Below, piece after piece: positions 42,525 through 42,867 of a stretch of 64,000 nt of DNA. Position numbers and translations under genes: made by a program. Every line of letters begins with the position of its first letter. Position 1 is the first letter of the stretch. Under the pieces are notes generated by a model. That model was not told the origin of the DNA. It searched no databases and saw only the letters and a list, made by a program, of their open reading frames with translations. Source of the stretch: Limnochordaceae bacterium (GTDB lineage: Bacteria > Bacillota > Limnochordia > Limnochordales > Geochordaceae); the NCBI GenBank assembly GCA_014896295.1, contig JADBKR010000007.1, forward strand, positions 496,001 to 560,000, in the 5' to 3' direction.

Positions 42525-42867
42525 ACACTCAGTATAGTGACTGTAAGCGGCGATGACGGGGAGCGAGTAGGCAGGGTGCCTGCCATCGAGCGAGCCGGGT
42601 AGGGTGGGAGCCGGCAGGCGGGTCCTGGCGAACATGGCCCCCGAGCTCCGGTTGCCAACGGTGCCGGCATCCTGCGCCGGCGCCCGGTAGTGACCGGCGG
42701 GTGCGCCCGATAGCGCGCCGGGGTATGACAGTACCCGTGGAGGCCGCCGGTCGCGAGGCGGCGGCGAAGTCGGGGTGGTACCGCGCGAGGCCCGTTGGAG
42801 CGAGGCCTTTCGCCCCCGATCCGGCAAGGACCCATGAGGGCCGGCTCGGAGGCGAAAGGCCTTTTTT
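42525..42867 (+). promoter_or_regulatory. T-box riboswitch, methionine specifier, controlling metG
   Basis: A tRNA-sensing leader of about 340 nt. Stem I begins with the conserved GATGACGGGGAGCGAGTA (from about 42552) and contains GAGCGAGCCGGG...GGGTGGGAGCCGG (42588-42613), the distal-loop/AG-bulge elements. The specifier sits in GCGAACATGGC, with AUG (Met) at 42634-42636. The T-box core GGGGTGGTACCGCG (42772-42785) carries UGGU, whose U would pair with the A discriminator of tRNA-Met. A terminator hairpin follows. Uncharged tRNA-Met should stabilise the antiterminator and raise metG expression. Confidence 0.93.
42803..42867 (+). terminator. Intrinsic terminator of the metG T-box
   Basis: A 12-bp perfect stem (42803-42814 with 42851-42862) and a T run (42862-42867), 45 bp before the metG start. 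The competing antiterminator uses the T-box core just upstream. Confidence 0.88.

Follow-up and report, generated by a model that had tools for sequence, protein, structure and literature searches.

The window, a stretch of 64,000 nucleotides from a Limnochordaceae bacterium (contig JADBKR010000007.1), has a GC content of 71% and carries metG, the gene for methionine--tRNA ligase, on the forward strand. A leader lies upstream of the gene. An earlier sequence-only reading had set its end points at 42525-42867; these hold good, and a likely promoter adjoins them upstream. Between 42489 and 42912 the elements follow one another in the order promoter, stem I, a linker carrying the F-box and a predicted stem III, T-box core, terminator, purine-rich ribosome site and metG start codon (Table 1), and the elements that the earlier reading had named were located in the sequence where it had placed them. 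The promoter scan of 42400-42920 returned a single promoter-like site, against a mean of 0.0 (sd 0.2) in shuffles. TTGACA with an 18-base spacer is also present in two leaders from the same family (L039 and L040).

Table 1. Features of the metG leader and gene, in coordinates of the window
Feature	Position	Strand	Basis or detail
Likely promoter, TTGACA–18-base spacer–CAGAAT	42489-42518	+	Directly upstream of leader
Stem I	42550-42645	+	RF00230 match 42544-42654; covariation in 44 metG leaders
Start of stem I, GCGAUGACGGGGAGCGAGUA	42550-42569	+	Located in sequence
Specifier loop, 5' strand, AGCGAGUA	42562-42569	+	Location; GAGTA invariant in the stem I alignment, where it served as cutting anchor
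Distal hairpin of stem I	42594-42615	+	Location; helix 4 of the stem I alignment, 98.2% of cells paired
Specifier AUG (Met)	42634-42636	+	Codon-blind pattern in relatives; register common to all seven T-boxes of the genome
F-box of stem IIA/B, CCGAUA	42707-42712	+	Sequence comparison with metG leaders
Predicted stem III, GCCGCCG / CGGCGGC, then GAAG	42743-42765	+	Sequence reading
T-box core	42769-42785	+	Bulge UGGUACC 42776-42782; UGGU 42776-42779, predicted partner of tRNA ACCA
Antiterminator	42769-42820	+	Helix A1 42769-42775/42814-42820; helix A2 starts 42783-42785/42811-42813; fold and covariation
Intrinsic terminator with U run	42802-42867	+	Hairpin 42802-42863, T run 42862-42867; fold energy
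metG, methionine--tRNA ligase	42912-44883	+	Two reading frames; NCBIfam NF008900, tblastn

The metG gene is divided between two frames, from 42912 to about 43097 and from about 43105 to 44883, so that the first 62 residues lie in a separate frame. Both pieces match NF008900, the first with 102.2 bits (positions 3-61 of 648) and the larger with 809.8 bits (positions 72-648), and the MetG protein of a relative matches frames 3 and 1 by tblastn. In the nearest relatives metG is a single open frame of 779 and 816 aa. Among the best three of the six metG matches in the genome, one is long and the other two are short (E 3.5e-16 and 4.4e-15), while the remaining three rank below E 5.8e-12. Since no second long match is found among the matches listed, the frame break about 190 bases into the gene is most simply explained, and was probably caused, by an assembly error.

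At Rfam gathering thresholds, no matches were obtained within the window. When 601 bases were compared with 4227 families, RF00230 matched 42544-42654 with 31.1 bits (E 4e-5; gathering score 93 bits), and in the whole-genome search the metG leader had E = 4.5e-5. The check proposed with this model thus yields only a sub-threshold match, which lies over stem I and leaves the T-box core outside. The next matches, MIR2109 (E 0.0027), P35 and VA, fell on the terminator hairpin and were taken for chance. Across the whole genome RF00230 gave seven matches at E <= 10, none of them over the gathering score. Six were at E 4.5e-5 or better; the remaining one, at the thrS leader (E 1.67), would by itself prove nothing. 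With the same cutoff, 10 of 14 control genomes contained RF00230 matches, archaea included, and two contained matches over the gathering score. Sub-threshold scores are therefore common in this genome and in the controls; a low score is usual with this model, and weak matches are poor evidence on their own. An annotation relying on the gathering score would miss all seven T-boxes found in the genome.

Relatives were used to examine the conservation of the leader. Sixty genomes were searched for metG, and 56 upstream regions were examined, our own and those of 55 relatives; G026, G037, G039 and G044 were left out because they gave no long metG match (best E 3.3e-11, 4.4e-13, 2.0e-13 and 1.4e-16, respectively). 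Of these 56 regions, 50 contained the T-box core, its position in L060 (GGGTGGTAAAGC) being set by hand. The exceptions were L053, L071, L082, L086, L090 and L093, where a diverged leader could be missed. A string resembling the core occurs in L071 but lies downstream of where metG starts, and L086, L090 and L093 likewise gave no match to the motif for the start of metG. A set of 80 named loci provided 36 further regions, the other 44 having no start motif or fewer than 400 bases upstream. Core and AUG were both present in 17 of these 36, the core only in one and neither in 18; six of the 17 (L129, L130, L132, L133, L136 and L137) are probably repeats of relatives already counted and are not independent.

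Stem I was aligned for 44 of the 50 core-bearing metG leaders, leaving out those with a longer stem (L073, L083, L084, L085, L088 and L089). In this alignment 94.2% of cells pair, and the covariation score of 0.839 was reached by none of 500 shuffles (0.307 +/- 0.017) and compares with at most 0.230 when slid. Cells changed on both sides yet still paired numbered 228, against 75.2 +/- 9.0 after shuffling. The count of pairs with a change on both sides (15 of 17, against 12.9 shuffled) is a weak measure, reached by 36 of 500 shuffles. The structures tested here and for the antiterminator were predicted from the same alignments, which favours the covariation results to some extent. The leader studied here forms 14 of the 17 consensus pairs; the other three are G-G, A-A and A-C, and the G-G mismatch is unique to it among the 44 leaders. 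Folded singly, its stem I was no better than shuffled sequence (z = -0.14, with 87 of 200 shuffles as good), so that the case is carried by comparison with relatives and not by a single fold. The covarying alignment has the stem I of a T-box, with specifier loop and distal loop.

The rows of both alignments were chosen with a pattern that requires AUG, and the stem I rows were also cut at GAGTA. The invariance of AUG and GAGTA in the stem I alignment is therefore built in, and a codon-blind count is the fair test. A codon-blind pattern found AUG in all 50 core-bearing metG leaders and another triplet once, in one leader. With a looser pattern AUG was again found in 50 of 50, together with 37 other locus-triplet pairs; these involve many different triplets, the most frequent of which occurs in five leaders. 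The genome itself contains seven T-boxes, the one at metG and six others (L001-L005 and L007) at leuS, ilvB, ileS, pheS, valS and thrS. A single register, defined as a fixed distance from the GAG or AAG that closes stem I, gives the expected amino acid in all seven: CUC for leuS and ilvB, AUC for ileS, GUC for valS, UUC for pheS, ACC for thrS and AUG for metG, with the genes checked against NCBIfam. Four of these seven leaders each gave one additional triplet at another place, which was discarded on account of its position. Genes of branched-chain biosynthesis, such as ilvB, are usually preceded by a Leu codon. The AUG originally read as the specifier is borne out by the codon-blind count and by the genome-wide register, and it corresponds to the gene downstream. 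Three SAM riboswitches (L218-L220), which score over the gathering threshold, are present elsewhere in the genome.

The antiterminator was aligned for 49 of the 50 leaders (47 distinct; L081 was left out). In the 47 distinct leaders 95.5% of cells pair, and the covariation score was 0.338, compared with 0.156 +/- 0.017 in shuffles (reached by none of 500) and at most 0.182 when slid. Further pair types were not above shuffles, 163 of 500 reaching the observed value. In the leader itself the antiterminator folds with -28.7 kcal/mol (z -2.07, 7 of 200 shuffles as good) and the terminator with -42.2 kcal/mol (z -3.84, 0 of 200), the latter confirming the intrinsic terminator with a T run that had been proposed. 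The 5' half of the terminator overlaps the 3' strand of antiterminator helix A1, and the two folds are therefore mutually exclusive, an arrangement that covariation and folding both support and that is characteristic of a T-box. When the joint stretch was folded, the terminator won without tRNA, as expected for a default-off switch. No terminator was reported by the promoter/terminator scan, which accepts loops of 3-8 bases only and may for that reason have passed over this hairpin.

On the tRNA side, the tRNA family search gave 44 matches in the genome, all of which were read with ARAGORN. The anticodon CAU occurs in four tRNA genes, of which two are initiator-like and identical to each other, one is elongator-like, and the last is, to judge from known sequences, probably the AUA-reading tRNA-Ile. 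All four end in ACCA, with A73 in tRNA-Met, and the initiator-like and elongator-like tRNAs are alike in both CAU and ACCA. The UGGU of the bulge thus fits the A73 discriminator, as in T-boxes generally. The sequence-only reading had regarded this fit as a strong consistency check; the bases match as predicted, but the strength claimed for the match does not stand. An ACCA end also occurs in tRNA-Phe, tRNA-Ile (GAU), the two tRNA-Val read and five tRNA-Leu, so that UGGU is simply the common state, and because six of the seven T-boxes in the genome carry it, the check has little power alone. It gains weight by comparison with thrS, where the leader has UGGA and all three tRNA-Thr end in UCCA (U73). 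In one relative (G006), the metG leader L085 carries UGGG even though the CAU tRNAs read there end in ACCA (30 of 47 tRNA loci read).

Our analyses indicate that the leader is almost certainly a transcriptional methionine T-box riboswitch of the usual build upstream of metG. The original assignment of a T-box with a Met specifier, metG and a terminator is upheld by the covariation, by the other T-boxes of the genome and by the relatives. A GC-rich hairpin that stands before metG by chance, with no tRNA control, might be suspected from the GC content of the window and the unremarkable single-sequence fold of stem I, but the core, the specifier and the covariation of stem I and antiterminator in relatives leave this reading a negligible probability. 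It is also highly improbable that the T-box reads another codon in a frame shifted by one (CAU for His or UGG for Trp). Several frames are possible in a specifier loop, and TBDB examines three (in the available text of PMC7778990); however, the codon-blind pattern found AUG throughout, the flanking bases vary (C, G or U before AUG and G or A after it in the stem I alignment), and the six other T-boxes of the genome give the expected amino acid in this register.

A third reading is that the T-box is decaying, with leader control and metG both out of use in this organism. The F-box is CCGAUA, compared with CCGUUA in 46 of the 50 metG leaders (L076 shows neither form), and the other T-boxes of the genome have CCGUUA in five cases and ACGUUA in valS. 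The division of metG between two frames and the three unformed pairs of stem I point in the same direction. Against this, CCGAUA is shared with L055 and L056, the promoter, core, terminator and purine-rich ribosome site are all present, and the metG downstream is the sole long match in the genome among the matches listed. The gene is also expected to be essential, and we consider decay very unlikely.

For the methionine T-box, direct support here extends to the elements and how they covary, to the register of the codon, to the match with A73 and to the mutually exclusive folds, while tRNA binding, the sensing of charging and the direction of control are inferred from the known T-box family. 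The nascent leader would bind tRNA-Met, the specifier AUG pairing with the anticodon CAU and distal stem I contacting the tRNA elbow. With uncharged tRNA, the ACCA end would pair with the UGGU bulge and allow the antiterminator to form, which would withhold the strand 42814-42820 from the terminator, and metG would be transcribed. A charged tRNA would not be held at the bulge, so that the terminator would form and transcription would stop before metG. In Staphylococcus aureus, the met leader prefers initiator tRNA by experiment, and its tRNA binding was not weakened by an altered specifier (both from the available text of PMC3771891). By analogy, the leader described here might sense mainly the initiator tRNA, a possibility that we regard as unlikely; if it were true, the supply of methionyl-tRNA synthetase would track the demand of initiation and not that of elongation.

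The metG leader is an ordinary methionine T-box, new only as an individual example. It adds one well-supported metG T-box from a GC-rich genome and otherwise changes little. In TBDB, a collection of 23,535 T-boxes, AUG is given as the Met specifier (available text of PMC7778990). Methionine T-box regulons of Lactobacillales are mentioned in PMC3766115, although metG, metS and methionyl-tRNA are absent from its main text. Among titles and abstracts, in a literature scope that mostly excludes subscription journals, none was found with a metG T-box as its topic.

Compared with known systems, the leader has the element order and specifier position of the long-stem-I transcriptional T-boxes of RF00230, with stem IIA/B and stem III. 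It also shares their GAGUA and AG-rich loop motifs, the UGGN-ACC bulge and the alternative of antiterminator and terminator. Unlike the RF00230 standard, it scores under the gathering threshold, has the F-box CCGAUA and is built of GC-rich stems; the F-box of a Nocardia farcinica T-box is CCGUCA (available text of PMC7583486). The Met T-box of S. aureus metICFE-mdh likewise has AUG in its putative specifier box, a T-box motif and a terminator, but controls biosynthesis, whereas the leader here precedes metG (available text of PMC3771891). Among other Bacillota, in Brevibacillus invocatus (L150), Aneurinibacillus aneurinilyticus (L154) and Pelotomaculum propionicicum (L164), metG is likewise preceded by a T-box core and an AUG in register.
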